Shown piece by piece: positions 6,856 through 22,346 of a DNA stretch of 27,541 nucleotides; the stretch's first letter is position 1; the number at the start of each line of letters is the position of its first letter. Source of the DNA: a virus; IMG/VR virus record IMGVR_UViG_3300042542_003080, positions 1 through 27,541 of that record. One strand, written 5' to 3'. The notes below the pieces were generated by a model that searched no databases, had not been told where the DNA came from, and saw nothing but the letters and a program-made list of their open reading frames with translations. The translations under genes and the position numbers were made by a program.

Positions 6856-7266
6856 CTATTCGATCCCCCTGATGCGCCAGAACGCGACGACCGGCTCGAC
6901 CTGCACGCACTCGATGACGCGACGGTTTCGGCCCCACGCGTGCACGACCACCGGCTGGCCGCAGCCGTTCACGCCGACCGGGACGACGACGTGACGCGCC
7001 TGCCGGCCTACCCGAACCTGCCAGATGTGAGCATCCGCAGGATCCGCCACGCGATCGCAGTAGGAGGCCAGCCCGTCAGCAAGGTCTGACTCGCCCGGCA
7101 GAACCCCGTAGCCGCGGGTGGCAGGGAGCACGAGGCCGCACGCCGTCGCCGCCGCCCACGGGACGCCGACGCAGTCGAGGCCCCTGCCGATCGCTCGGCC
7201 TTGGTGGACGACTGGCGTCCCGATGCAGGACCGGACCGCCTCCAGGAACTGTGCGCGCGCAATCAC
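6856..7266 (-). CDS. NlpC/P60-family tail-tip peptidase
   Basis: 136 aa. Papain-like cell-wall peptidase of the phage type that follows DUF2163 in GTA-like tails; it is expected to cut peptidoglycan peptides during DNA entry. The motif GRGLDCVG carries the predicted nucleophile Cys32, and ARHVVVPV carries the predicted His92. The VVHAW...VIE segment near the C-terminus matches the family's IHA...VVE ending. Length is normal for this phage subfamily (about 130-150 aa). Start is GTG 7266, overlapping the DUF2163 stop as GTGA; the longer upstream frame is noncoding. It sits between DUF2163 and TipJ, as expected. Confidence 0.8.
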   Translation of the reverse strand: MIARAQFLEAVRSCIGTPVVHQGRAIGRGLDCVGVPWAAATACGLVLPATRGYGVLPGESDLADGLASYCDRVADPADAHIWQVRVGRQARHVVVPVGVNGCGQPVVVHAWGRNRRVIECVQVEPVVAFWRIRGIE

Positions 7267-8369
7267 CTCTCCCCCGGTTGCTCGATGACTTGTGCTGCGC
7301 TCGGCGCTTCGTGGTCGCCGCCGAAGTTCAGCTGGTTCGCGAACTTGTCCTTGCACGTCGAGAACAGACCATCGCACCCGACGCGGATGACGCCGCGGTC
7401 GCCGACCTGAATCGGGTAGACCGTCGGCAGCAGCAGCTCGAAGCGGTAGGCCGCGTCTTGGTAGCGCGCGATCGGGCAGACCTGGCCCGCGTTGTCGCCG
7501 GTCACCCAGTGGATCTCGCCGTCTCGATACCAGTCGTCGCCGAAGCCGTTCGTGAACAGCGATGAGGTGACGGTGAACTCGCGGCGGTTGTCGATGACGG
7601 TCGCCACCGTCGGGCCGCGGCCGATGTGGTAGGCGCACGACACCGGCAGAACCGACCACTGGCCGTCAACGAAGAGCGTGTCGGAGTCGTTGCCCAGGAT
7701 GGCGAGCTCCTGACCGCTGCCGACGCCACCCGCGCGCATGAGCACGCGGTAGCCCGCCCACTGGTCCGTGGTCCAGGACTTCGACACGTCGGTCAGCGAC
7801 ACCGCGTTGGCGGCAGTCGCGGTGCCGATCTCGCTGGCGGCCATCTGCGTCCATGCGCTGATGTCCTTCCGGCAGAACTGGCCGCCCAGCTTGTATTGAC
7901 ACGTCGTCGTCCAGGTGCCACCGAAGCGCCCGGCGGCCTGCCGCTGCAGCTGTTGCGACCGGCCCTGCAGCGTCGCGGTGAAACTGCTGCCGCGGCGCAC
8001 GATCTTGCGGATCCAGCGCCGGTGCCGCGCGAACACCACCCACGGCTTCTGCCAGTCGGTGACGACTTGGTAGACCGTGGCGCCGAGGTAGGCGCCGCCG
8101 TTGATGTCGGGGATCGTGACGGTCGTCCCGTCGATGTGCCCGCGCGCTTCCTGGTCGCCGGTGCGCAGAGCCGCCTCGCGCCGGTCGGCCGAGAGCTCGC
8201 CCATGATGACCGGCACGTAGACGCGCCCCTCGAAGGTCAGCGCGCGATCGTGGTCGGTGAACGTCAGCTCGACGCCGTCCTTGCGCACGATGCGGATCAG
8301 GTGGCAGAGCTTCTTCGTGCGCGTGTAGCGCAGCTGGCTGAGAGCGCCGGCTCCGGGTCGACTGGTCAA
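7263..8369 (-). CDS. DUF2163 tail-tip hub protein (GTA gp13 / lambda L-like)
   Basis: 368 aa. The N-terminal half has the diagnostic LIRIVRKDGVELTFTDHD and VYVPV...GELSAD pattern. The C-terminal signature is RVGCDGLFSTCKDKFANQLNFGGDH. Cys157, Cys166 (TTTCQYKLGGQFCRKD), Cys332 and Cys339 match the four-cysteine set that binds a 4Fe-4S cluster in lambda L and RcGTA gp13. An extra ~70-aa beta module (about 183-252, SWTTDQWAGY...) is inserted after Cys166. The start is inferred as TTG at 8369 because it overlaps the preceding stop as TTGA and gives the normal N-terminus (LTSRPGAG...); no nearby ATG or GTG fits. It links the tail tube end to the TipJ hub. Confidence 0.85.
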   Translation of the reverse strand: MTSRPGAGALSQLRYTRTKKLCHLIRIVRKDGVELTFTDHDRALTFEGRVYVPVIMGELSADRREAALRTGDQEARGHIDGTTVTIPDINGGAYLGATVYQVVTDWQKPWVVFARHRRWIRKIVRRGSSFTATLQGRSQQLQRQAAGRFGGTWTTTCQYKLGGQFCRKDISAWTQMAASEIGTATAANAVSLTDVSKSWTTDQWAGYRVLMRAGGVGSGQELAILGNDSDTLFVDGQWSVLPVSCAYHIGRGPTVATVIDNRREFTVTSSLFTNGFGDDWYRDGEIHWVTGDNAGQVCPIARYQDAAYRFELLLPTVYPIQVGDRGVIRVGCDGLFSTCKDKFANQLNFGGDHEAPSAAQVIEQPGER

Positions 8370-9451
8370 AACGAGACCTCCGCACCGTTGATGGTGCCGG
8401 TGACGAGCTTCGTGACGGTGACGGTCGACAGGTAGCGGATGGCCGCACCCGCAGCACCGCCCTGCGCCGCCGTGATGGCGGTGCCCAGCGAGCTGCCCGG
8501 CGACCCTGCCGCCCCCGGCCCGCCGCCTGCGCCGCCGCTGTTGTGGCCCGCCAGGACGCCACCGAGGCCGCCGAGGCCGATCGTGCCGCCCTGGCCGTTG
8601 CCGGCCGCCAGCTGGCCAGCGCCGCCGAGGCCGAAGCCGCCGAGGCCCGGCTCCGAGGCGAGGTAGCCAGCACCGCCGCCGCCACCGCAGCCAGGCACGG
8701 CGACGAACGTGCCGCCGCCGCCGCCGCCACCGCCGCCCTGGATGAAGCCGCGGTTGACGACGACGAGGTTGTTCCAGGTCTGGATCGCCGCGCCGCCGGC
8801 CTGCCCAGGACCGTTGAACGCGGACGGAGGGACCAGTCCGCCCTGGCCGCCGGCACCACCGCGGCCGCAGATGCGGGCGCCGGCCTCGAGCAGCAGCTTG
8901 ATCGTCGTGCCGGTCGGCCAGACGCCCGTATCGAAGGCCGGGATCGCAACCGACGTGCTGCCGATGACGTGGCCAGCCGCGATCGTGCAGGTGACGGCGT
9001 AGGGCACGTCGTCGAACGCGCCAGCCGACCGCGCATACTCGCGCAGGTTGAGGTTCGTCTGCGTTGTCAACCGTAGGTTTACAACCTTGCGGTCGGCGAG
9101 GCCGGTGCCGAGCGTCGCCGTCCCGCTGCGCACGTAGACCTGCCACAGGCCCTCGACCGTGATGAACGGAAGGTGCAGGTCGGCGACTTGTCCAGGCGTC
9201 AGCGTCGCGAACGTCGTCCCCAGGATGCCGAGGATGGTCAGGTTCGCCGTCCCGGCGTTCACGATGCGGAAGATGTCGGCGCCGGTGCGCAGGAACAGGG
9301 CGAGGGGCAGGACGGCGAACGTGGCAGACGACGGGCGCACCACGTGCAGGCGCTTGCCGCCCGGACCCCACGGCAGGCCGAGGGTGTAGAACGGGCCACC
9401 GGTCGAGACGTCGACCGAGCCGCCGAACCATGCATCTCCGGTGACGCTCAC
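8366..9451 (-). CDS. Polyglycine-rich tail adhesin-like protein
   Basis: 361 aa. Residues about 35-115 form a small beta domain (GADIFRIVNAGTANLTI..., GLWQVYV) that resembles the C-terminal domain of the neighbouring DUF2460 protein. About 120-190 is a linker/beta segment, and about 196-335 is extremely glycine-rich, with a run of nine Gly at 239-247 and GGG/GLGG blocks separated by short hydrophobic turns. Such blocks form polyglycine-II sandwiches in T-even gp38 adhesins and other phage tip proteins, so host recognition is plausible. Start is GTG 9451, overlapping the DUF2460 stop as GTGA. It sits inside a module (DUF2460-DUF2163) whose genes are usually adjacent. Confidence 0.7.
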   Translation of the reverse strand: MSVTGDAWFGGSVDVSTGGPFYTLGLPWGPGGKRLHVVRPSSATFAVLPLALFLRTGADIFRIVNAGTANLTILGILGTTFATLTPGQVADLHLPFITVEGLWQVYVRSGTATLGTGLADRKVVNLRLTTQTNLNLREYARSAGAFDDVPYAVTCTIAAGHVIGSTSVAIPAFDTGVWPTGTTIKLLLEAGARICGRGGAGGQGGLVPPSAFNGPGQAGGAAIQTWNNLVVVNRGFIQGGGGGGGGGTFVAVPGCGGGGGAGYLASEPGLGGFGLGGAGQLAAGNGQGGTIGLGGLGGVLAGHNSGGAGGGPGAAGSPGSSLGTAITAAQGGAAGAAIRYLSTVTVTKLVTGTINGAEVSF

Positions 9452-10401
9452 GAGGTCATCACCCACGTCGAAGTGCTGCCGCTGCGCACAAGGTTGATGC
9501 GGCGCGCGCTGCCGGCGCTGATGGCGGTGCCGAGGGCGTTGCCGGCGTCGTCGCGGACCTGCACGGTTCCCGCCGAACCGGTCGCGTTGTTGATGACGAA
9601 GACGTCGATGCCGCTGCCCATCTCGCCCGGCACCGGGAGGAACGCGTTGATCGCAGCGCCAGGAACGATGTTGATGAGCCGGCCGTCGGCGTAGCTGAGC
9701 GTGACGTCCTGCGAGGTCGTGATGTTGAAGCAGCCTCCGGGGTCGACGCGCTCCGGCTGCTCGACCTCGTTCAGCACTTCCTGCAGGTCGAGAAGCGGCA
9801 GGCTCCAGGTCTGGAACGCGTCGGCCTGCAGCCGGGCCCATCGGTCGAAGTCGAGCGAGAAGCGCACCGGCACGAAGAACTGGTAGCCGGCGGTGACGAT
9901 CTGGCCGAGCGTCGGGGCCGCGGCGAGCGTGACGACGCCTGCGCTGTTGACCGTGAACGACGTCGTCGGCGTGCCCGCGACCGCGACCAGCACGGAGCCG
10001 CTGACCGGCAGCGTGATCGTGCGGGTGTATTCGCTCGGCCCGGTGGCGCCGTAGCGCTTCACCAGCTGGAAGTTCGTCCTCGTGCCGTCGCCGGTGCCGA
10101 GCACTTGGTCGAGTGCGGCCGGCGCCGTCTCGCCGTCGGCGTTGCTGGTGTAGTCGGCGAAGTCGGTGACCTTGAACGAGTGCAACGCGCCGCGGCGTTC
10201 CAGCGCGAACGACTTCAGCTCTTTCGCCTCGGCCGGCGTCTGCAGCGCCTTGACCAGCGAGAGCCGGTGCACGGCCTGCGCCTGCCGCGCGACGCGGACC
10301 TCGTGCCCGCTCGCGGTCGTCTGGATGATCGTGGCGAAACCGGGGCCGCTCTGGCTGGCATACTGGATGCCGCTCGGAAGGGTGACGTCGTGGAATGCCA
10401 T
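9448..10401 (-). CDS. DUF2460 distal-tail protein (GTA gp12-like)
   Basis: 317 aa. Residues 1-210 match the DUF2460/TIGR02217 family, which forms the distal tail ring at the tube-hub junction. Typical are FHDVTLPSGIQYASQSGPGF, the RVARQAQAVHRLSL and ELKSFALERRGALHSFKVTDF segments, and the FFVPVRFSLDFD motif. After this core (about 225-317) there is an additional beta domain, not part of the basic family, with GIDVFVINNATGSAGTVQV and a final W. The ATG at 10401 follows the tape-measure stop by 3 nt. The gene is the first of the conserved tail-tip module. Confidence 0.85.
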   Translation of the reverse strand: MAFHDVTLPSGIQYASQSGPGFATIIQTTASGHEVRVARQAQAVHRLSLVKALQTPAEAKELKSFALERRGALHSFKVTDFADYTSNADGETAPAALDQVLGTGDGTRTNFQLVKRYGATGPSEYTRTITLPVSGSVLVAVAGTPTTSFTVNSAGVVTLAAAPTLGQIVTAGYQFFVPVRFSLDFDRWARLQADAFQTWSLPLLDLQEVLNEVEQPERVDPGGCFNITTSQDVTLSYADGRLINIVPGAAINAFLPVPGEMGSGIDVFVINNATGSAGTVQVRDDAGNALGTAISAGSARRINLVRSGSTSTWVMTS

Positions 10402-10404
10402 GCG

Positions 10405-11730
10405 TTAGGACGTGGTGATGCCGGGGCCGCCGACTTGGGGGATGCCGCTGTTCTGCACCCTCTGCGTGCCGGTGATGCCACCGACCACAGCACCGAAGAG
10501 GCCGCCGACGCCTTCCTGGAAGCCCTGGCGCGCGAGCGACTGGAACACCGCGGCCAGCGCGCCGCGCAGAGTGTTGGCGCCGCTGATGGCGTCGAAGAGA
10601 GCGCCGCCGATGGCCGCGCCGAACTGCTCGCCGGCCCGCGTCGCGCGCTCGATGTTCTCGTTGATGCGCTCCCAGCGCTCGGCCTGCTGCTGCATCTGCT
10701 CCTCGGTCATCCGGACGCCGGAGCCGGGGACGCCGTTGTCGGGGTTGAGGATGTCTTCGATGGACGGGTTCGCGTTGAACCCAGGGCGCAGGACGCCGGT
10801 GGAGTAGAGGGCGGAGTCTGAGACGTTGCGGGCGAACGGGCCTAGCGCCTCTGGCGTCGATACCTGCCCGGTCTGCCGAAGCAGCGATTGAGCTTGGCTC
10901 CGCAGCACCGCGAGCGCCTGCTCGTTGGTGAGCCGCACAGCCCCCGGGCTTGTGTTCTCGAAGTTCTCGATCCTCGGGAACCCGCCCGGGCCACCGGAAA
11001 CCGTCCTCGAATCAGCGAACGACCCGCGAGACAGGAACTGCGCAGCCGACTGGTTGCCCTCGAAGGCAAGGAACGCGATCAACTGCTGGTCCGAAAGCCC
11101 CGCCGCGTCGCGAAGCTGGTTGAACCCGCCCGGCAGACCTTGGCCAGCGACAAGGCCCTGCTGAAGCTGCTGGATCTGGCGGAGCTGCCGGCCGGACCTT
11201 GCAGCAGGGTCGTCAGGGATGCCGAGCAGCCTGTTCGCTCGATCGGAGATGTCGTTCTTGCGGATCTCGTCCGCGAGGGCTTGGTAGTCGACCGCGGCCT
11301 GCTTCGCTCCGCTGCTGAACGCTGCGAACGCCGTGGCCGCGATGCCGATCGCAGTCGCCACCGCCCCGATCGGGTTCGCGCGGATGACGGCGCCCAGCGT
11401 CCCGAACACCGTCGCCGCGCCGCCGACCGCGCCGCGCAGCTGCTGGAAGTCTCGCGCCGTGTTGCCGACCTCGAGCAGCGTGCGGCTGGCGTTGAACAGG
11501 CCGGCGGCCGTGTTCAGCTCGCCGAACGCCTTCGCGGTCTGGCTGATGCCGGTCGCGATCTGGACGCCGCCGCCGGTGACCTGGAAGGCGGACGAGAGCG
11601 CGCTACCGGAGCGCTGGACCTCGGTCGCCGTCTTGGCCGCGGTCGCCGTGACGGAGTCGAGAGCCGTCTTGGCCACCGCCGCCCCGCGCTGCATCCCCGT
11701 CGCGTCGATCAGCAGTTCGAGAGTTGGCAT
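10405..11730 (-). CDS. Tape measure protein (short)
   Basis: 441 aa. An N-terminal helical segment rich in Ala, Thr, Ser and Gln (about 25-95) is followed by a hydrophobic stretch ANPIGAVATAIGIAATAFAAF (about 137-157) typical of tape measures, then charged helical sequence to the C-terminus. It lies exactly between the G/GT chaperones and the distal-tail gene, the standard tape-measure slot. Using the usual ~0.15 nm per residue relation, 441 aa suggests a tail of only about 60-70 nm (inference). The start ATG 11730 has an upstream AAGGGGG Shine-Dalgarno. The first 128 nt overlap the end of the frameshift product of the chaperone gene. Confidence 0.8.
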   Translation of the reverse strand: MPTLELLIDATGMQRGAAVAKTALDSVTATAAKTATEVQRSGSALSSAFQVTGGGVQIATGISQTAKAFGELNTAAGLFNASRTLLEVGNTARDFQQLRGAVGGAATVFGTLGAVIRANPIGAVATAIGIAATAFAAFSSGAKQAAVDYQALADEIRKNDISDRANRLLGIPDDPAARSGRQLRQIQQLQQGLVAGQGLPGGFNQLRDAAGLSDQQLIAFLAFEGNQSAAQFLSRGSFADSRTVSGGPGGFPRIENFENTSPGAVRLTNEQALAVLRSQAQSLLRQTGQVSTPEALGPFARNVSDSALYSTGVLRPGFNANPSIEDILNPDNGVPGSGVRMTEEQMQQQAERWERINENIERATRAGEQFGAAIGGALFDAISGANTLRGALAAVFQSLARQGFQEGVGGLFGAVVGGITGTQRVQNSGIPQVGGPGITTS

Positions 11731-13658: not shown

Positions 13659-14068
13659 GTCACTACCTCGTCGACTCGGAAGGGGATGCGGACGGTCCGC
13701 CGGCACCAGGCCCCGTCGACTTCGGCGGTGCCGATGATCGAGGGCGCTGGCGTGAAGGAGATGAGGGCGGGCGTCTCGGTGGACACGCCGCGGAAGGCTG
13801 CGATGACGGTCGCGGCGCGGTCGAGGAGGGCCGCGTCGCCGAGGCGAGCCGGCGCGAACAGGTTGACCGTGGCGGAGCCCGTGGACCGGTAGCGAGCGGT
13901 GCCGGTGGCGACCTGCGTCGTGCTGTCGACCGCGATCGAGAATCGGCACCAGCTCTGGACGGCGTCGGCCGGTTGCGGACCGTTGTCGTGCACGGTCACG
14001 AGCTCGAGCTCGTCAGTGACGAGCGTCTTGAACCGGGCCCGGATCCACTCGAAGGCGGCGGGGCTCAC
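13655..14068 (-). CDS. Tail terminator protein (DUF4128-like)
   Basis: 137 aa. Its size, helical start (AAFEWIRARFKTLV) and alternating beta strands (WCRFSIAVDSTTQVATG, ATVNLFAP, CRRTVRIPFRVDEVVT) match the small tail-terminator proteins that cap the tube and join it to the neck. It sits between a gp10-like neck gene and the tail tube, the canonical position. The start is GTG 14068, overlapping the gp10-like stop as GTGA. The longer upstream frame is a shadow. The terminator assignment relies on both the sequence pattern and synteny. Confidence 0.75.
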   Translation of the reverse strand: MSPAAFEWIRARFKTLVTDELELVTVHDNGPQPADAVQSWCRFSIAVDSTTQVATGTARYRSTGSATVNLFAPARLGDAALLDRAATVIAAFRGVSTETPALISFTPAPSIIGTAEVDGAWCRRTVRIPFRVDEVVT

Positions 14069-14535
14069 GACACCCTCGCATACTTGGCCGAGATGGCGGC
14101 GACGGCCTGCGCGACCATGCCGGCGGGCGCCTGCTTGCTCCAGCCGTTCTCCAGCGCGTCCATGTAGTCGAGCGGGTTGGTGATCCAGACCGCCGACGGC
14201 TGCGTGATGCGGCCGACGACCGCGAAGCCGTCCGACAGCGCGCGCGCGCCCGTGGCGTCGACACCCTGCAGCGGCGATCGAGCCGGCGCACCGATCGCGA
14301 TCTGCCAGTTGCGCCGCGCCTGGCCGCCGACGTAGCCCTTCGGCAGCGGCGGCAGGCCCTTCAGCGCGCGCTTCTGGTTGCCCTTCCACCGGGTCGAGTT
14401 GCCGACCGGCGTCGCCTGCACGATCGCGGTGAACGTCTCGGCGACGATCTGCTTCTGCATCTGGACCGCGCGCGCCGGCACCTCCTCGGAGAGCCATCGC
14501 TCGATCTCGAGCTTGAACTGGCGGGCGTCAGCCAT
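14065..14535 (-). CDS. HK97 gp10-like neck/tail completion protein
   Basis: 156 aa. An N-terminal helix with many charged residues (ARQFKLEIERWLSEEVPARAVQMQKQIV) is followed by a segment with TPVGNSTRWKGNQKRALKG and a C-terminal WITNPLDYMDALENGWSKQAPAGMV. The ending 'Y...LE.G.s..aP.GMv' is diagnostic of the HK97 gp10 / tail-component family that bridges head closure and tail terminator. The ATG at 14535 overlaps the previous gene by 8 nt. Length is normal for the family. Confidence 0.85.
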   Translation of the reverse strand: MADARQFKLEIERWLSEEVPARAVQMQKQIVAETFTAIVQATPVGNSTRWKGNQKRALKGLPPLPKGYVGGQARRNWQIAIGAPARSPLQGVDATGARALSDGFAVVGRITQPSAVWITNPLDYMDALENGWSKQAPAGMVAQAVAAISAKYARVS

Positions 14536-14902
14536 TGCCCACCTCGCCGCAGTCGAGCCGGAAGGCGACCGTGCCGCCCTGCAGCTGCAGCGGGAACAGG
14601 TTCGCGACCTGCCACGTCCGGCCGCCGACGACCAGCCGGTCGCCCAGCTTCGGCGTCAGCGAGAGCCCCACCGCCGACACGTAGAACGTGCCGGTCACAG
14701 TCTGCTCCGTCGACAGGTCGCGCCAGCGCTTCGACTCCTCGACCGGGCCCGCTAGCGTGACCGAGACGTCGACCGGCGTGCCGGTGACGGTGCCGTCGGT
14801 CGCGTAGGTCGACGGCATGCTGCGCAGCGTGCCACCGGCCGGCGGGCCGAACTCGGCCAGGATCTCGCGCGCGAAGGTCTGGAACTCCGACAGCAGGCTC
14901 AT
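14528..14902 (-). CDS. Head closure / neck protein
   Basis: 124 aa from ATG 14902, which overlaps the connector stop as ATGA (another ATG six codons upstream is less likely). A short helical start (SLLSEFQTFAREILAEFG) precedes a small beta barrel with SVTLAGPVEESKRWRDLSTEQTVTGTFYV, SLTPKLGDRLVVGGRTWQV and a final AFRLDCGEV. The phrase 'GD.l..gG..w.V' is typical of phage head-closure (SPP1 gp16-like) proteins. Synteny between connector and gp10-like protein agrees. It has no membrane segment or catalytic site. Confidence 0.7.
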   Translation of the reverse strand: MSLLSEFQTFAREILAEFGPPAGGTLRSMPSTYATDGTVTGTPVDVSVTLAGPVEESKRWRDLSTEQTVTGTFYVSAVGLSLTPKLGDRLVVGGRTWQVANLFPLQLQGGTVAFRLDCGEVGNG

Positions 14903-17415
14903 GCGATCGCCCACCCCCACGCGCCGCCGTCGGCGATGAGCCCGGCGCCGACGAGCATCTTGTCGAGGGCGGGGAACTGCGTGGTCGCCGACTTGGCGCC
15001 CTGATAGGTCACGGTCTTCGTGAAGCCGGCGCCGCTCTTGCTCTCGCTCTTGATGTCGGCGTCGGTCTGCGTGTCCGGGATCAGAGCGTTCCCCTGGACG
15101 TGCAGCAGCGCCGCGCGCGCGACCCAGTGCTGCAGCTTCGTCGGCACCGCGTCCTCGGCCAGCAGGTCACCCGCCGGGCCGTAGGCGCCGGTGCGCGGCC
15201 AGTCCAGCGCCTGCTCGGACGTGAGACGCTTCCCGGTCCAGCGCACGCCGTAGCGCTCGTCGGCCGCGCGGGTCGCGATGCACAGCGCCTGCTGCTTCGC
15301 CGCGGTCGACAGGGCCGTCCACGCCGACGGGTTGCCGTAGCGCTCGTGGTAGTCGTCGGCGGTGGCGACCGCGCAGTAGCTGTTGCTCGACGTGAGACCG
15401 CTGCCGTCCTCCACGGTGAAGGCGGCGGTCTCGGACGGCGTCTCCGTTGCAGTCGCCGTCCCGCCCTCCCCGTCGATCAGTGCCGCAAGCGCATCGAACG
15501 CGTCGTAGCCGATCTGGTAGACCGCCTCGGCCGCGTAGTGGACGTTGTCCGAGCGGTTGAGCTCGTAGTCGCTCGGCCCGGCGTTGCGCAGGACGCGCAC
15601 GTTCGCGCGTGCGCCCTCGAGCGAGAGCACCGCGTCGCGGTAGGCCACGCGGATCGACTCCTGGCCAAGGCTCGACCCGCCCGACACCAGCGTCGACGGC
15701 GGCGGGCCCTGAAGCCAGACCAGCGGCAGCGGGTCGCCGGTCGCGCGCGTGCTGACGAGCGAGCGGATGCTGTCGATGAAGACCGGCGCCTTCGCGGCGA
15801 ACGCGTTGACGACCGACGTGCTCCAGAGGTCGTTCTCGCCGAGCGAGACCAGCGCGCCGACCATGTCGACCTGCTTGCCGAGGTCGCGAAGGCAAGCGAT
15901 GCGGAACTTCTCGAACTGCGCCTCGGTAGTCGACCATCGCGGCGTGCCTTCCTCGAAGGCCCCCTGCGGGTTGCCCGCGAGACCAGCCTCGACCGTCAAC
16001 GGGGCGCCGGCCTCGGCGTGCTTGAACAGCACGACCTGCCCGTAGCGCTCGACCGCCTTCTTCAGGAGCGTGCTCTCCGGACCGAAGCCGGAGATGACAC
16101 TCCCGAACGTCGATGCGTTCGCGGTGATGTCGTAGGGCTCGACCTGCTCGGTGGTGTTGTTCCAGACGTAGACGCCGGGCCGGAACGTGCCTCCGGTTGG
16201 GCCGATGATGCTCGCCTGGTTGCTCAGGACCGCGTAGAGCGGGTCCATGCCGGCGGTGACGAGCTGGCTGTCGCCGAACATCGCGAAGCCGGCGATGGCG
16301 TTCCCGAGCGTGCTGGTGGGCGCCTCGGTGTAGTAGGCCTGGATCGCGTTGAAGAGCCCGATGCCGGCCTGGAGGTAGGTCTCGGTGTCGTAGTAGATCG
16401 GGTCCGTCGGCTCGGCTGCTGGGGCGAGCACCGTCGTCGGTGCGAACTTGCCCCAGTTCATGTCGTAGAGGACGACGCCCGTGTTCGTCTGCTGCAGCGT
16501 CCGATTGACGCCGCGCACGAAGTTCGACAGGCCGGGCGCCGCGGTCTTCAGGATCTCGCGGTGTTGGTTGACGAGCACGATCAGCGCGTCGGCGTCGATG
16601 TCGCTGCGCACGCCGGTGATGAACTCCTGAGCCTGCGTCTGGTAGTTGAAGTTGACGCCGAGCAGGTCGTTCGTGCTCAGGTCGACGATGACGGCGCGGA
16701 TGTCGAGCGTGTCCGGGGCGATCGCCGCCTCCATGTCGGCGATGTGGCCCAGCAACAGAGACCACGAGAGCTGGCCCGGCCGCATCGGCGACAGGCCGGC
16801 GCCGAACCCGCCCGTGGTGCCGAACTTCAGCATCTTGAAGCCGGGCGTCGCGTTTCCGTGCAGGACCGCCAGCTCCTGCATCAGCATGCTGCACGGCGTG
16901 ATCGCGCCGCCGTCGTAGAACCAGTTGTCGCCGTTCGAGGTTGGGTCGACCGTCGGGAACAGCGCGTTGGGCTCCATGTAGTGGAACGGGACGAACTTCC
17001 CGGTCCGGACGTGGAACGTGCTCGAGGTCGGGTTCGTCGCCCACGCGACGCTGACGGTGATCGTGTTGTTGGTGTTGGAGACGACCGTTCGCTCTTGGCC
17101 AACGCCGACGCCCGCGTCGATGTAGACCAGCTTCCCGGCGAACTGGTTGGTCGTCCACGGCGTGCCGCTGACAGTGATCGTGGTCGAAGTGGCGCCGGTC
17201 GACGTCTGCAGCGAACCGGCTCGGCCGTCCCAGTAGGGGGAGTAGGTGCCACCGTTGACGCCATCGGGGCCGCTCGGCACGACGCGGTTCAGCTTCGGGA
17301 ACAGGCGCGCGATGCCCCAGAATACCGGGCTGCCGGTCTCCGGCTTGTTGATGCCGGTCGGGCCGCCAGTGATCTGCTCGTCGCCGACGTAGATGTAGGT
17401 GGGGATCGCGACCAT
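14899..17415 (-). CDS. Fusion: two SGNH-hydrolase-like domains + head-tail connector
   Basis: 838 aa in one open frame. Domain 1 (about 5-365) resembles an SGNH/sialate-O-acetylesterase fold, but GDEQ (11-14) replaces GDSQ, STND (247-250) stands at the G.ND block and DTET (343-346) replaces D..H, so it looks inactive. A beta module (about 66-139) is inserted in it. Domain 2 (about 374-648) carries GDSQ with Ser383, GFGPE at 443-447, GEND at 526-529 and DNVH at 623-626, a complete SGNH set. After a Thr/Glu linker, residues about 665-838 match the DnaT_2-like head-tail connector family (VEDGSG...NSYCAVATADDYHERYG, ...RWTGKRL..EQALDWPR). The upstream gap has only a weak AAGG before ATG. A GTG at 15414 could allow a connector-only product. 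Such fusions are not usual for this family. Confidence 0.8.
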   Translation of the reverse strand: MVAIPTYIYVGDEQITGGPTGINKPETGSPVFWGIARLFPKLNRVVPSGPDGVNGGTYSPYWDGRAGSLQTSTGATSTTITVSGTPWTTNQFAGKLVYIDAGVGVGQERTVVSNTNNTITVSVAWATNPTSSTFHVRTGKFVPFHYMEPNALFPTVDPTSNGDNWFYDGGAITPCSMLMQELAVLHGNATPGFKMLKFGTTGGFGAGLSPMRPGQLSWSLLLGHIADMEAAIAPDTLDIRAVIVDLSTNDLLGVNFNYQTQAQEFITGVRSDIDADALIVLVNQHREILKTAAPGLSNFVRGVNRTLQQTNTGVVLYDMNWGKFAPTTVLAPAAEPTDPIYYDTETYLQAGIGLFNAIQAYYTEAPTSTLGNAIAGFAMFGDSQLVTAGMDPLYAVLSNQASIIGPTGGTFRPGVYVWNNTTEQVEPYDITANASTFGSVISGFGPESTLLKKAVERYGQVVLFKHAEAGAPLTVEAGLAGNPQGAFEEGTPRWSTTEAQFEKFRIACLRDLGKQVDMVGALVSLGENDLWSTSVVNAFAAKAPVFIDSIRSLVSTRATGDPLPLVWLQGPPPSTLVSGGSSLGQESIRVAYRDAVLSLEGARANVRVLRNAGPSDYELNRSDNVHYAAEAVYQIGYDAFDALAALIDGEGGTATATETPSETAAFTVEDGSGLTSSNSYCAVATADDYHERYGNPSAWTALSTAAKQQALCIATRAADERYGVRWTGKRLTSEQALDWPRTGAYGPAGDLLAEDAVPTKLQHWVARAALLHVQGNALIPDTQTDADIKSESKSGAGFTKTVTYQGAKSATTQFPALDKMLVGAGLIADGGAWGWAIA

Positions 17416-17474
17416 GCGTCAGGCCTTGTTCCGAAACAGCCCGCGGCGGCGCCATGCCAACGCCACCGCGGACA

Positions 17475-17495
17475 GGCCCGGCACGGCGCCGGGCC
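17475..17495 (-). terminator. Strong GC hairpin after the capsid-cement gene
   Basis: Perfect 8-bp inverted repeat GGCCCGGC / GCCGGGCC with a 5-nt loop, 18 nt downstream of the cement-protein stop and inside the 97-nt gap before the SGNH-connector gene. No T-run follows on the minus strand, so it is not a standard intrinsic terminator. It may weaken read-through or protect the 3' end of an abundant capsid mRNA. Nothing else is seen in this gap. Confidence 0.4.
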
Positions 17496-17512
17496 GATGA
17501 GCTCTCACGCCA

Positions 17513-17989
17513 TCAGACGTCGTAGGCCGCCCACGCCGTGTAGGTGATCGACGGCGTGGTGCCGCCGATGACCGCACGGAGGCGGATGTAGCGCTGCGGC
17601 TGGTACTCGCCCGCGGCCACGGCGGCCACGTTGTCGAAGTAGATCGGGTAGCGCCCGACCACGCTGTTCGCGCCGATGCCGGTGCCGCCGTTCGTGCCCA
17701 GCGCGCGGCGGCCGATCTCGTAGACGGTGCCGCCGAAGCCGGCCGTGTTCGTGCCCTGCACGACCATCGTGTAGGCCTCGTCGTTGCTCGCGATGTCGAT
17801 CGCGGTCACGTCGAGGAACACGACGCCCTTGATGAACTTGACCGGGGCGTTGGCCGGAGCGCCCGGCATGAGGTCGATGACGGCATCGGCGCCGCCGACC
17901 TGCGCCGTAGCCGTCGCGGTGATCGCCGCCGTGACGTCCTTCAGCTGCAGCTGCGAGTCGAAGGTCGGGTTGTGAGTGGTGTAGACCAT
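17513..17989 (-). CDS. Capsid cement/decoration protein (Bbp16-like)
   Basis: 158 aa. Directly downstream of the major capsid gene, beta-rich with no TM segment. The N-terminus (TTHNPTFDSQLQLKDVTAAIT) and the middle (FIKGVVFLDVTAIDIASNDEAYTMVVQGTNTAGFG) resemble the Bbp16 family of capsid-cement proteins from Bordetella phages, and the R..GRYPIYFDN and RYIRLRAVIGG strands agree. Family role: bind the outer capsid lattice and stabilise it after expansion. The ATG at 17989 has a clear GGAG 8 nt upstream, in line with high expression. Confidence 0.7.
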   Translation of the reverse strand: MVYTTHNPTFDSQLQLKDVTAAITATATAQVGGADAVIDLMPGAPANAPVKFIKGVVFLDVTAIDIASNDEAYTMVVQGTNTAGFGGTVYEIGRRALGTNGGTGIGANSVVGRYPIYFDNVAAVAAGEYQPQRYIRLRAVIGGTTPSITYTAWAAYDV

Positions 17990-18007: not shown

Positions 18008-18967
18008 TCAGGCGACCGCAGTCGCGTCGGTGATGTTGTAGACACGAGCCACGCACCGCGGGTGCTCGTCGACCATGCCGAGATACCACTCGGCGCGGGT
18101 GCGGAAGACCGGCTTGCCGTTCTGCTCCTGCAGATCGCGGACGTCGAGGCCGCCCGGCGCCTGGATGCCGTGGAGGCCGTCCTCCGACAGGTTGAGCACG
18201 AGGACCGAGGTCGTCGTGTTGTTGTTCTCGTTGAAGCCGAGAGCGGCCTGGTCGCCGTTGATGTCCGCCCACAGGATCGGCAGGCCGTTGTAGGTCTGCA
18301 CGATGCGGCCGAACTCGTCCTTCGTCTGCTGGATCGAGGCCGACCCGCGGAGGAACGTGTTGATGTTGATGGCCTGCTTCTTGGCCATCAGGATGTGCGT
18401 CGGACGGTCGACGGCCATGATGGCCGAGTCGAGACGCGCCATGCTGAGGGCGGCGTTGCTGTTGTTGAACAGCTGGCCGCCGTTGACGCCGGCCGTCGAG
18501 ACGGTCGAGGTGCCGAGGCCGCCGCCGTAGCGAGCGAGCAGACCGTCGATGCCGTGCGGGTCACCGGTGACGCCGCCGAGGTTCATGACCGTGCCGCGGA
18601 CCATGTCGAAGCCGATCTTCTGAGCGATCGCCTTGATCTTCAGCATCTCGTGCCGAGTGCGGACTTCCGGGCCGCCGGTGCGGATCAGGAAGTTGTCGAC
18701 GTCGAGGTCGCCGCCGTAGATCTTCAGCGACTCGAAGATCTCCTCGGTCGCGCCGCTCGATTCCGTGTAGGAGCCGTTGACGGGACGCGACGCGGCGGTG
18801 CCGAGAGCGGACTCGCGAGTCCACTTGTAGGCGTTGCCCGCGATGTCGACGAACGGCATTGCACCGAGCAGCATCGACTGCTCGGCGAACGTCATGAGGA
18901 TGCCGGCCTTCTTGAACTCGCCGTTGTTCGCGGCGAGGTTGGCGGCTTCCAGGGTGGTGATTGCCAC
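18008..18967 (-). CDS. Major capsid protein (HK97 fold)
   Basis: 319 aa. It forms the icosahedral shell. Typical features are an N-terminal helix, the segment FEQ-like MTFAEQSMLLGAMPFVDIAGNAYKWTRE, an E-loop region with SYTESSGATEEIFESLKIYGGDLDVDNFL, a helix MARLDSAIMAVDRPTHILMAKK (P-domain helix), and a C-terminal WYLGMVDEHPRCVARVYNI. It lies between a scaffold gene and a cement gene, as expected. The start is GTG 18967 with AAGGA 8 nt upstream. No N-terminal protease-cleaved delta domain is fused; the separate scaffold gene provides that role. Confidence 0.9.
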   Translation of the reverse strand: MAITTLEAANLAANNGEFKKAGILMTFAEQSMLLGAMPFVDIAGNAYKWTRESALGTAASRPVNGSYTESSGATEEIFESLKIYGGDLDVDNFLIRTGGPEVRTRHEMLKIKAIAQKIGFDMVRGTVMNLGGVTGDPHGIDGLLARYGGGLGTSTVSTAGVNGGQLFNNSNAALSMARLDSAIMAVDRPTHILMAKKQAININTFLRGSASIQQTKDEFGRIVQTYNGLPILWADINGDQAALGFNENNNTTTSVLVLNLSEDGLHGIQAPGGLDVRDLQEQNGKPVFRTRAEWYLGMVDEHPRCVARVYNITDATAVA

Positions 18968-20131: not shown

Positions 20132-20728
20132 CTACCAGCTCTCGTCATGCGCAACATGACGGCGACGCGAAGATGACGCCACCAGCGGCAGCAGCTCCCG
20201 CCGGACCTTCAGGCGCAGGTCGCCGAGGTCGCTTCCGTCGTTGGCGAACTTGACCTCGCGCATCCCGCGGACGCGCGGCCAGTAGCTGCGCGAGTCGCCC
20301 GCGAAGTCGGTGCCATGGCGGGACACACGCACCAGCAGCACGTTCTGCGGCCCCACCTTCCTGGCCAGCGCCTGCGCCTCGGTGCGGAACCCGGAGTCGG
20401 TGACGATCGCGACCAGCCCGTCGTTCTGCGCCGCCTGGCTCTCGACCTCGAGCGCCAGCAGGTCGCCGAAGTAGGCCTCGCCGAAGAGCGGCTTGCACAT
20501 GCGCTCGCTGTAGGCGATCGCGACCTCGCGCGGCGTGCGGCCGCACAGCGCGTCGTGCGGCTCGTCCTTCTCGACGGTCCGCATGTCGATGCCGTGCACG
20601 TCTCGCAGGTAGTCCGCGATCGGCTGCGCGAACTTGCAGAGCACCGCGCTCGGCAGGTCGCAGTAGAGCATCTCGCCGATGGTGTCCTTGCCGCAGCGAG
20701 GCGGCCCGTTCAGCAGAACGACCCTCAT
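20132..20728 (-). CDS. Deoxynucleotide monophosphate kinase-like P-loop protein
   Basis: 198 aa. Begins MRVVLLNGPPRCGKDTIGEML, where GPPRCGKD-T (8-16) is the Walker A of the phage dNMP-kinase-like family. Further family features are KFAQPIADYLRDV, a SYSERM-like AIAYSERMCKPLFG, and VAIVTDSGFRTEAQ at about 107-121, the core strand plus DSGF motif. The expected reaction is phosphorylation of a deoxynucleoside monophosphate, often one with a modified base, for phage DNA synthesis. It overlaps the phosphoesterase stop as ATGA. A nucleotide-metabolism enzyme among head genes is a cargo-gene arrangement. The substrate cannot be read from the sequence. Confidence 0.75.
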   Translation of the reverse strand: MRVVLLNGPPRCGKDTIGEMLYCDLPSAVLCKFAQPIADYLRDVHGIDMRTVEKDEPHDALCGRTPREVAIAYSERMCKPLFGEAYFGDLLALEVESQAAQNDGLVAIVTDSGFRTEAQALARKVGPQNVLLVRVSRHGTDFAGDSRSYWPRVRGMREVKFANDGSDLGDLRLKVRRELLPLVASSSRRRHVAHDESW

Positions 20729-22098
20729 CGGCTACTCCTCCCCTTCCGTTTCGTCGTCGGCGAGCCGGCAGATCGTGCAGCCCGCTTTCCCGCAGGGGGG
20801 CGTTGCGTCGGCATCCGCAGTGTCTCCAGCCAGTTCGTGTTCGGGTCGGGGTCGGCGAGTCCGCGCCTCTCGTATGTGAACCCCTCGACCGTGAGCCTTT
20901 CGACCGCGCCCACCTGGACCACGGCCGGGTATTGATGCACGGTCCCGTCGGGCTGCAGATGCGCCACTCCGATGCCTCGTTGCCATCCGGTGTTGGTCCC
21001 CTTGATGTAGGCCCGTCCGACCTCGTGCCGCGCGCCCATCGGCGTCGACATCCACGAGAGCGCTTCGTCCCTCTCGTTCGTCCCGTAGGCGACCGACGCC
21101 CGGTGGACGTGCCCGCTCTGCCCGCTGCGGCCTGCTGATCGCAATTCTGCGATGGCCGGAGACTGGCCCAGCGCGGTGCCGTGGTGCACGCGGTAGTGGC
21201 CGAACAGCAGGAAGCCCGGCTTCGCGTCCTCGGTGCCGGCCGGCGACAGCGTCGAGCCGCCCAACATCAAGCGCACGTCGAACTCGCGTAGGCCCAGCAG
21301 TTCGTCGATGCGTAGCGACGGCAGCCCGACCAGCGCGGGCGCGCACTGCGTCAGGTAGCGCGGCAGCCGGTCGCCGAGGTCGTGGTTGCCGCCGGTGAGC
21401 CACAGGTCGCCGTCGTGCACCGATCGCAGGTGAGCGATCATCTGCCGTTGGAACGCCAGTTCGCTCGCGAGTGATTGCGTCCAGTCGCGCGGCTGCACGT
21501 GCCGGGAGATGCCACCGTCGTCGATGATGTCGCCGTTCAGCAGCACGCCGTGCGGACGCAGGTCTCGGATGGCCTGCAGGAAGGCGAGCCAGACGAACGG
21601 ATCGAGCATGCTGCCGTGGGTGTCGCTGATGGAGAGCAGCAGGTAGGCGGACGAGAGCCGGCGCTCCCGGTCGGCCACGTAGGGCGCGACGTAGCGCGCG
21701 AAGTAGCGGGACGCGTGGTCGTGCCGGCTGGTCTCGGCGCGCTTCCTGCGCCACAGCATCGTGCCGACCTGGTCGCGCAGGCCGGCGACCTCGAGCGCGT
21801 GCGTGAACGTGCCGAACTCGGCGTCGAGGAACTGCACCGGGAAGTGCCCGAACAGCTCGTAGCGGCGCCTGCTGATGCTGCGGAACGCGTGCCACGGGTT
21901 CGTCTCGGCGTCCTCGGCGACGCGCACGACGTCGGCCAGCATCTGCTCAACCGTGGGCCGCTGCTTCGCCTTGCCGGCCAGGATGCGCGCCTGTTCGGCG
22001 GCCTGCTTGGCCTTGCGCTCGTGCGCGCGGTGGCGCTCCTGCTCGTCCTGCCGGAGCGTCTCGGGGGCCGCAAGGAACTCGTCGACTGTGCGCTTCAC
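20725..22098 (-). CDS. Metallophosphoesterase with N-terminal DNA-binding-type repeat
   Basis: 457 aa from GTG 22098. Calcineurin-like metal-dependent phosphoesterase with all main motifs: SDTHG (158-162), NGDIIDDG (188-195), GGNHD (236-240), GHYRVHHG (300-307) and SGHVHR (328-333), which would bind two metal ions. Before it (about 67-108) lies SRRRYELFGHFPVQFLDAEF followed by GTFTHALEVAGL, resembling the homing-endonuclease-associated repeat (HNH repeat), so DNA targeting is plausible. An Arg/Lys/Gln-rich helix starts the protein and a basic tail ends it. The start is chosen because it gives a GTGA overlap with the upstream gene; an ATG at 22119 would overlap by 25 nt. Substrate unknown. Confidence 0.8.
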   Translation of the reverse strand: MKRTVDEFLAAPETLRQDEQERHRAHERKAKQAAEQARILAGKAKQRPTVEQMLADVVRVAEDAETNPWHAFRSISRRRYELFGHFPVQFLDAEFGTFTHALEVAGLRDQVGTMLWRRKRAETSRHDHASRYFARYVAPYVADRERRLSSAYLLLSISDTHGSMLDPFVWLAFLQAIRDLRPHGVLLNGDIIDDGGISRHVQPRDWTQSLASELAFQRQMIAHLRSVHDGDLWLTGGNHDLGDRLPRYLTQCAPALVGLPSLRIDELLGLREFDVRLMLGGSTLSPAGTEDAKPGFLLFGHYRVHHGTALGQSPAIAELRSAGRSGQSGHVHRASVAYGTNERDEALSWMSTPMGARHEVGRAYIKGTNTGWQRGIGVAHLQPDGTVHQYPAVVQVGAVERLTVEGFTYERRGLADPDPNTNWLETLRMPTQRPPAGKRAARSAGSPTTKRKGRSSR

Positions 22099-22346
22099 CT
22101 CGGGTCGTCCTTGATGCATGTCCGCACATGGTGCTGCATCGTGTCGTAGGCGACGTTCAGGCCGTTCGGCACGAGGTAGTCGCGGCGGAACTGCGCCCAG
22201 GAGATGGCGGTGCGGCCGGACTCGCGCGCCGCATGGAACTCAGCGATCGCGCCCGCGAGATCGGCGTTCCGGCAGACGCTGCACTTCGTCGGCTGCCGCG
22301 GCCGTGTCTTCGATAGCCAGTCCGCAAGGATCTGCTTCTTCGGCAT
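22095..22346 (-). CDS. Zinc-ribbon-like HTH mini-protein
   Basis: 83 aa. A basic N-terminus is followed by KCSVC (Cys22, Cys25), a helical middle with SWAQFRRDYL, and YDTMQHHVRTC (His72/73, Cys77). The spacing suggests a CC-HC zinc site around a helix-turn-helix-like fold, a layout seen in small phage DNA-binding proteins. A GGAG Shine-Dalgarno precedes ATG 22346. It is translationally coupled to the metallophosphoesterase, suggesting they work together, possibly as a DNA-binding partner. This is inference. Confidence 0.65.
   Translation of the reverse strand: MPKKQILADWLSKTRPRQPTKCSVCRNADLAGAIAEFHAARESGRTAISWAQFRRDYLVPNGLNVAYDTMQHHVRTCIKDDPR

Follow-up and report, generated by a model that had tools for sequence, protein, structure and literature searches.

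An adaptor of the phage neck fused to tandem SGNH domains and its exchangeable N-terminal modules

Introduction

The head-tail adaptor of tailed phages is usually seen as a conserved plumbing part of the neck. In the DNA of an uncultured tailed phage (IMG/VR record IMGVR_UViG_3300042542_003080), a single gene joins such an adaptor to two domains related to carbohydrate esterases. The locus raises a simple question: is this gene genuine and, if it is, what would an esterase do on a protein of the neck? The window analysed here is the whole 27,541-nucleotide stretch of the record, a fragment of 27.5 kb. We describe the gene and its domains, compare it with near-copies and remote homologues, and discuss how modules are distributed and exchanged at the N-terminus of the adaptor. 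Its relationships with known neck structures are then considered.

Results

The reading frame and its adaptor domain

The fused gene occupies positions 14899-17415 on the minus strand. A first-pass annotation of the sequence had reported one 838-aa frame there without giving its strand, and the frame is indeed uninterrupted from 17415 to 14899. Its GC content by codon position (61/50/94%) resembles that of the adjoining genes. On the plus strand, a long open frame of 815 aa (15100-17547) runs antisense to it; this frame is attributed to the high GC content at third codon positions and was not retained. The NCBIfam search returned no matches. The AF2 model of the 838-aa protein, built from a 21-row alignment, is of middling quality (mean pLDDT 65, pTM 0.41).

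Residues 664-838 (14902-15426, minus strand) form an Ad1 head-tail adaptor domain. The Pfam family DnaT_2 (PF20557) matches residues 665-824 with an E-value of 5.8e-28 and 98.3 bits against a cut-off of 27, over a near-complete profile (positions 2-153 of 168). The profile phrog_477, "head-tail adaptor Ad1", matches residues 664-834 (E 2.6e-34; profile positions 7-174 of 220). The DnaT_2-like connector that had been proposed at residues 665-838 is thus recovered by both profiles.

The gene lies in a minus-strand head-neck cluster with the order scaffold (phrog_206), major capsid protein (18008-18967; phrog_212, E 2e-54), a small protein (17513-17989; phrog_427, E 3e-8), the fusion, head closure Hc1 (14528-14920; phrog_161, E 2e-8), Neck1 or tail completion (14065-14535; phrog_169, E 2e-32), tail terminator (phrog_179) and tail tube (PF18906). 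The adaptor domain, the sole PF20557 match in this fragment record, therefore stands as a single copy between the major capsid and head-closure genes, the usual place of Ad1. Gene order around the fused adaptor is the same in three remote homologues (L085, L100, and L075). The head-gene cluster also includes, at 20132-22119 on the minus strand, genes for a deoxynucleoside monophosphate kinase (phrog_139) and a metallophosphoesterase (phrog_221), which separate the head-morphogenesis gene from the scaffold gene.

The esterase and adaptor parts are joined by a Gly/Thr-rich linker, residues 649-663 (DGEGGTATATETPSE; 15427-15471, minus strand), which has low pLDDT and is predicted to be disordered in the AF2 model. 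An internal start yielding a short adaptor was considered and rejected: neither the window nor most relatives have an in-frame start with a Shine-Dalgarno sequence at this junction, a weak GTG in L100 being the sole exception named. Hence the adaptor would be made only as a fusion, unless the protein is cut. Given a complete Ad1 domain in the canonical slot, the only one in the fragment, and no start at the junction, the adaptor of the virion would come from the fused gene, with the same proviso.

Two SGNH domains, one with a full catalytic set

Two SGNH/sialate-O-acetylesterase-like domains had been suggested upstream of the adaptor, at about residues 5-365 and 374-648. The second holds on structural grounds, with limits at residues 373-648 (15472-16299, minus strand). 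The first is homologous to it over residues 2-364, but the full catalytic set is found only in domain 2.

The SGNH fold, looked for by structure prediction, is present in domain 2: in the AF2 model this domain superposes as an SGNH alpha/beta fold on known esterases. With VIA-align, the best Z-score among the matches listed is 25.3, over 223 residues with an rmsd of 2.2, for the SASA esterase 2apj; further scores are 24.2 for 1zmb, 21.7 for NanS (3pt5), and 21.0 for the tailspike of cyanopodophage Pan3 (9vyh). All listed matches fall on domain 2, and they bear neither on the adaptor nor on domain 1. Foldseek also relates domain 2 to SASA-type esterases (E 3e-8). The Pfam SASA family (PF03629) gave no match in the window protein up to E 10; the relatives L085 (E 4e-14), L089, and L094 pass its cut-off. 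The putative nucleophile is Ser383 in a GDSQ motif (16267-16269, minus strand). Asn528 of a GEND motif (15832-15834, minus strand) corresponds to the block III oxyanion residue, and Asp623-x-x-His626 (15538-15549, minus strand) to block V. Ser383, Asn528, and His626 are kept in all eight relatives compared, down to 22% identity, and six of the eight have Asp at -3 from the histidine. Judging from sequence and predicted structure, domain 2 is a probable SASA-type carbohydrate O-acetylesterase.

Domain 1 (residues 1-365; 16321-17415, minus strand) is a degenerate SGNH copy. Its homology to domain 2 was detected by aligning profiles with hhalign (Prob 98.3, E 1.7e-14), and the AF2 model gives it an alpha/beta topology with strands and helices in the same order. 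The corresponding domain of L085 has a weak SASA match. In the window, Glu13 replaces the catalytic Ser and Tyr342 the His. Indeed, domain 1 of all five tandem members is devoid of the catalytic Ser, with Glu, Gln, Lys, or Asn at its place, and of the His. A pseudo-esterase thus stands beside a probable esterase, and domain 1, catalytically dead, probably serves as a glycan binder or spacer.

A beta mini-domain of ~75 aa is inserted in domain 1, at residues ~63-142 (16990-17229, minus strand). Part of the tail hub protein is homologous to it (E 1e-11); L100 has the insert, and L075, L085, and L092 lack it. In the tail hub protein (7266-9455, minus strand), its counterpart sits between the PF09931 and PF09356 domains. 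Resembling stretches also occur in L100 and in adaptors fused to a beta-rich module.

The fusion in near-copies and remote homologues

The window comes from a metagenomic virus assembled as a single contig, and an assembly or sequencing error could in principle have merged two genes, an event that the first-pass annotation would have placed near residues 648-665. The complete fusion is found in another contig (L002, 98% amino acid identity). Two more contigs, L003 and L004, span the junction, and L005 starts just ahead of the adaptor domain. L002 and L004 have an identical linker. All comparisons of near-copies show more synonymous than non-synonymous changes; pairwise dN/dS is 0.14 overall for L002 and 0.20 for L004, and below 0.37 for every domain. 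From these sequence comparisons, purifying selection acts on every domain of the fusion. The same domain order, tandem SGNH then adaptor, is moreover kept at 36-44% identity in remote homologues of 814 aa (L075), 827 aa (L085), and 921 aa (L100), and in L092, which is cut by a contig end; homologues of this architecture had been named as something to search for. Because independent contigs share the fusion under purifying selection and remote homologues have it as well, it is not an assembly error, and we regard the probability of an artefact as negligible.

Modules at the N-terminus of related adaptors

Connectors of this family had been described in the first-pass annotation as normally stand-alone proteins of about 170-200 aa. 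This is the case in seven isolate phages (158-191 aa) and in 31 of 31 homologues measured in bacterial genomes. Metagenomic relatives were collected by scanning with an interior adaptor motif, which favours no N-terminus. An alignment of all isolate adaptors was too divergent for use as a query. The 80 viral contigs scoring best against the window were kept, 77 of them outside its near-copies, so that the figures below describe this best-scoring set and not general prevalence.

N-terminal extensions of at least 99 aa are present in 20 of these 77 adaptors, and they are of four kinds. Tandem SGNH modules occur in the four remote homologues named above, a single SGNH module in L089, L094, and L096-L099, a beta-rich module of ~580 aa in L077, L078, L081-L084, and L093 (cut at its start), and Ig-like domains in L103, L108, and L111. 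A separate scan yielded a further Ig-fused case (L036). Since several extended adaptors are near-copies of one another, the independent cases are fewer than 20. The extension of L108 matches PF23148, "Podophage GP4 fiber-tail adaptor protein gp77" (E 9e-12), and that of L103 resembles Hoc-like decoration domains. A beta-helix identity for the beta-rich module of L077 was a guess and is not claimed here (AF2 pLDDT 41, no solved or Pfam relative beyond chance).

The esterase region had no tblastn match among 50,697 phage records, and a scan of genome contigs with the whole 838-aa protein gave none. Single-SGNH and Ig-fused queries gave matches confined to the adaptor part or its surroundings, none of which covered more than 80% of the query. 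The esterase region was also missing from 46 related records, a weak piece of evidence from a search that had no positive control. In Vibrio phage vB_VnaS-AQKL99 (L012, positions 1-2229), an unassigned protein of ~768 aa with no Pfam match ends ~250 bp upstream of a stand-alone adaptor gene, in a similar slot.

Gain, loss and exchange of modules

The beta-rich fusion L082 and the stand-alone adaptor L076 come from contigs that are 86% identical upstream and 96.5% identical downstream, with a single block differing between them (1,772 bp in L082 vs. 32 bp in L076). This block starts ~23 nt before the start codon, and its end lies at about codon five of the stand-alone adaptor. L094 and L100 show the same kind of single difference from the stand-alone L090, at 70-74% identity. 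On the adaptor tree, the fused or unfused state changes at least 10 times, at least five of these changes being forced by well-supported branches.

The esterase tree groups the window with L100 (98/98). In the adaptor tree, the window groups instead with L075, the beta-rich fusions, and the stand-alone L076 (99), and L100 with single-SGNH and stand-alone adaptors (100). As the two trees disagree and the pairs with and without a module differ by an insert at the adaptor start, the modules have been swapped. The N-terminus of the adaptor is a recombination site where phages gain, lose, and exchange modules. The absence of any N-terminal module from some relatives indicates that it is dispensable for assembly.

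One further case was seen in record G056 (L184, L185, and L186, from G056 and G055), read as two strain variants assembled at the two ends of one contig, one with a stand-alone adaptor and the other with an Ig-fused one. Ahead of the Ig-fused adaptor, 45 codons of the old adaptor gene remain, and upstream identity to the sister contig G055 is 99.8%. This looks like a recent module acquisition.

Discussion

Relationships with known neck structures

Stand-alone Ad1 adaptors (PF20557/phrog_477), such as those of Caulobacter phage DMCA and Pseudomonas phage JG012, share the domain at 25-35% identity and the slot before the head-closure gene. However, they have 158-191 aa and no N-terminal module.

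The adaptor of roseophage R4C is a dodecamer with an N-terminal Ig-like domain (~106 aa) at its periphery, for which a DALI search by the authors gave no similar structure (PMC10276861). It resembles the window protein by analogy of architecture, as an accessory N-terminal domain on an adaptor, but the R4C module is Ig-like and carries no enzyme. In podophage DEV, the adaptor gp83 bears an outward 101-aa domain, a lectin-type insertion, and the esterase-bearing fibre gp53 makes a collar round the adaptor (PMC10925440). Hence the statement that phage esterases belong at the far end of the tail was too strong. DEV shares with the present case glycan-type domains at the head-tail adaptor and an esterase at the neck; in contrast, its esterase is on a separate fibre protein and its adaptor domain is a mid-protein insertion.

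The neck passage structures of lactococcal 936 and TP901-1 phages carry carbohydrate-binding or pectin-lyase-like modules (PMC6669499) and undergo domain exchange (PMC10684548). There too, neck modules are swapped between phages, and they are dispensable in TP901-1. These structures are nevertheless separate collar proteins with a BppU-like base and a trimeric coiled coil and are swapped at the C-terminus, whereas the module of the window lies within the reading frame of the adaptor itself. Finally, tailspikes of the G7C-like podophages Moo19 and B2 show esterase activity, assayed for Moo19 on 4-nitrophenyl acetate, and these phages depend on O-antigen modifications (PMC11654681). Together with the Pan3 spike, which superposes on domain 2, they are examples of SGNH/SASA-type or other esterases on the virion, but as separate proteins and not fused to an adaptor.

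In the open-access literature, to which the search was limited, no description of an esterase- or enzyme-adaptor fusion was found. The view that no example had been described stands to that extent; the fusion is, however, no singleton, and is one of several N-terminal modules carried by such adaptors.

A possible neck collar

We propose, with a probability of about three in four, that the gene encodes an Ad1 adaptor with an enzymatic N-terminal extension, giving a neck collar of about twelve deacetylase or glycan-binding arms at a site of module exchange. After packaging, about twelve Ad1 domains would assemble beneath the portal into the ring typical of adaptors, and each subunit would carry its two SGNH domains on the outside of this ring by way of the short flexible linker. 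No solved structure matching the DnaT_2 family by sequence was found, and the orientation of the N-terminus thus rests on analogy with other adaptor families; the placing of about twelve arms outside the ring follows the R4C and DEV adaptors. As the tail tip locates its receptor, the arms may loosen acetylated polysaccharide on the cell surface or hold on to it. By analogy, the role that appears most likely is in adsorption, where the arms would deacetylate or bind such polysaccharide. In the R4C study, the Ig domain was argued to lie too close to the head for a part in adsorption (PMC10276861), which counts against this role. As to the tail of the window phage, the probable tape measure protein (10405-11730, minus strand; weak matches to phrog tape-measure profiles) has only 441 aa. 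With the usual rule of ~1.5 angstrom per residue, the tail would be ~65 nm, which is short, and the neck arms would be unusually close to the cell surface.

Two other explanations accept the fusion as real. The N-terminal modules may have no enzymatic role and either decorate the capsid-neck junction or brace it, the latter as proposed for R4C, where the Ig domain touches the capsid and was interpreted as stabilising (PMC10276861). Some relatives carry only Ig-like domains and the catalytic Ser and His have been lost from domain 1 in all five tandem members, both of which fit such a function. Yet the invariance of Ser, Asn, and His in domain 2 across the eight relatives argues against it, and the exchange among esterase, beta-rich, and Ig modules is more in keeping with host-facing diversification than with fixed bracing; we consider a purely structural function unlikely. 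It is still less probable that the fusion is cut after translation, leaving an ordinary adaptor of ~175 aa in the virion and a soluble esterase. A disordered Gly/Thr-rich linker would lend itself to this, and close relatives do manage with stand-alone adaptors. However, relatives differ in the length and sequence of their linkers, no common cleavage motif is visible, and nothing in the data requires a protease.

What the neck may carry

Beyond the enzymatic collar proposed for this phage, we lean towards a wider view, with less confidence. The N-terminus of Ad1 may be a general exchange socket in siphophages, where deacetylases, beta-rich spikes, Ig domains, and fibre-docking domains are recombined in and out, the neck ring processing the receptor alongside or instead of the tail tip.

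The phage neck thus appears to serve as a mount on which tools that act on the sugar coat of the host, or grip it, can be exchanged. A ring protein with swappable enzymes would put a host-interaction device on the neck with no separate fibre gene, and would offer an enzyme display mount of presumed known symmetry, about twelve. Adaptor annotations can then hide host-range determinants, and an esterase gene located in the head-neck module is not necessarily a tail fibre out of place. The pairs of phages with and without a module are a natural experiment on what the arms of the neck do.
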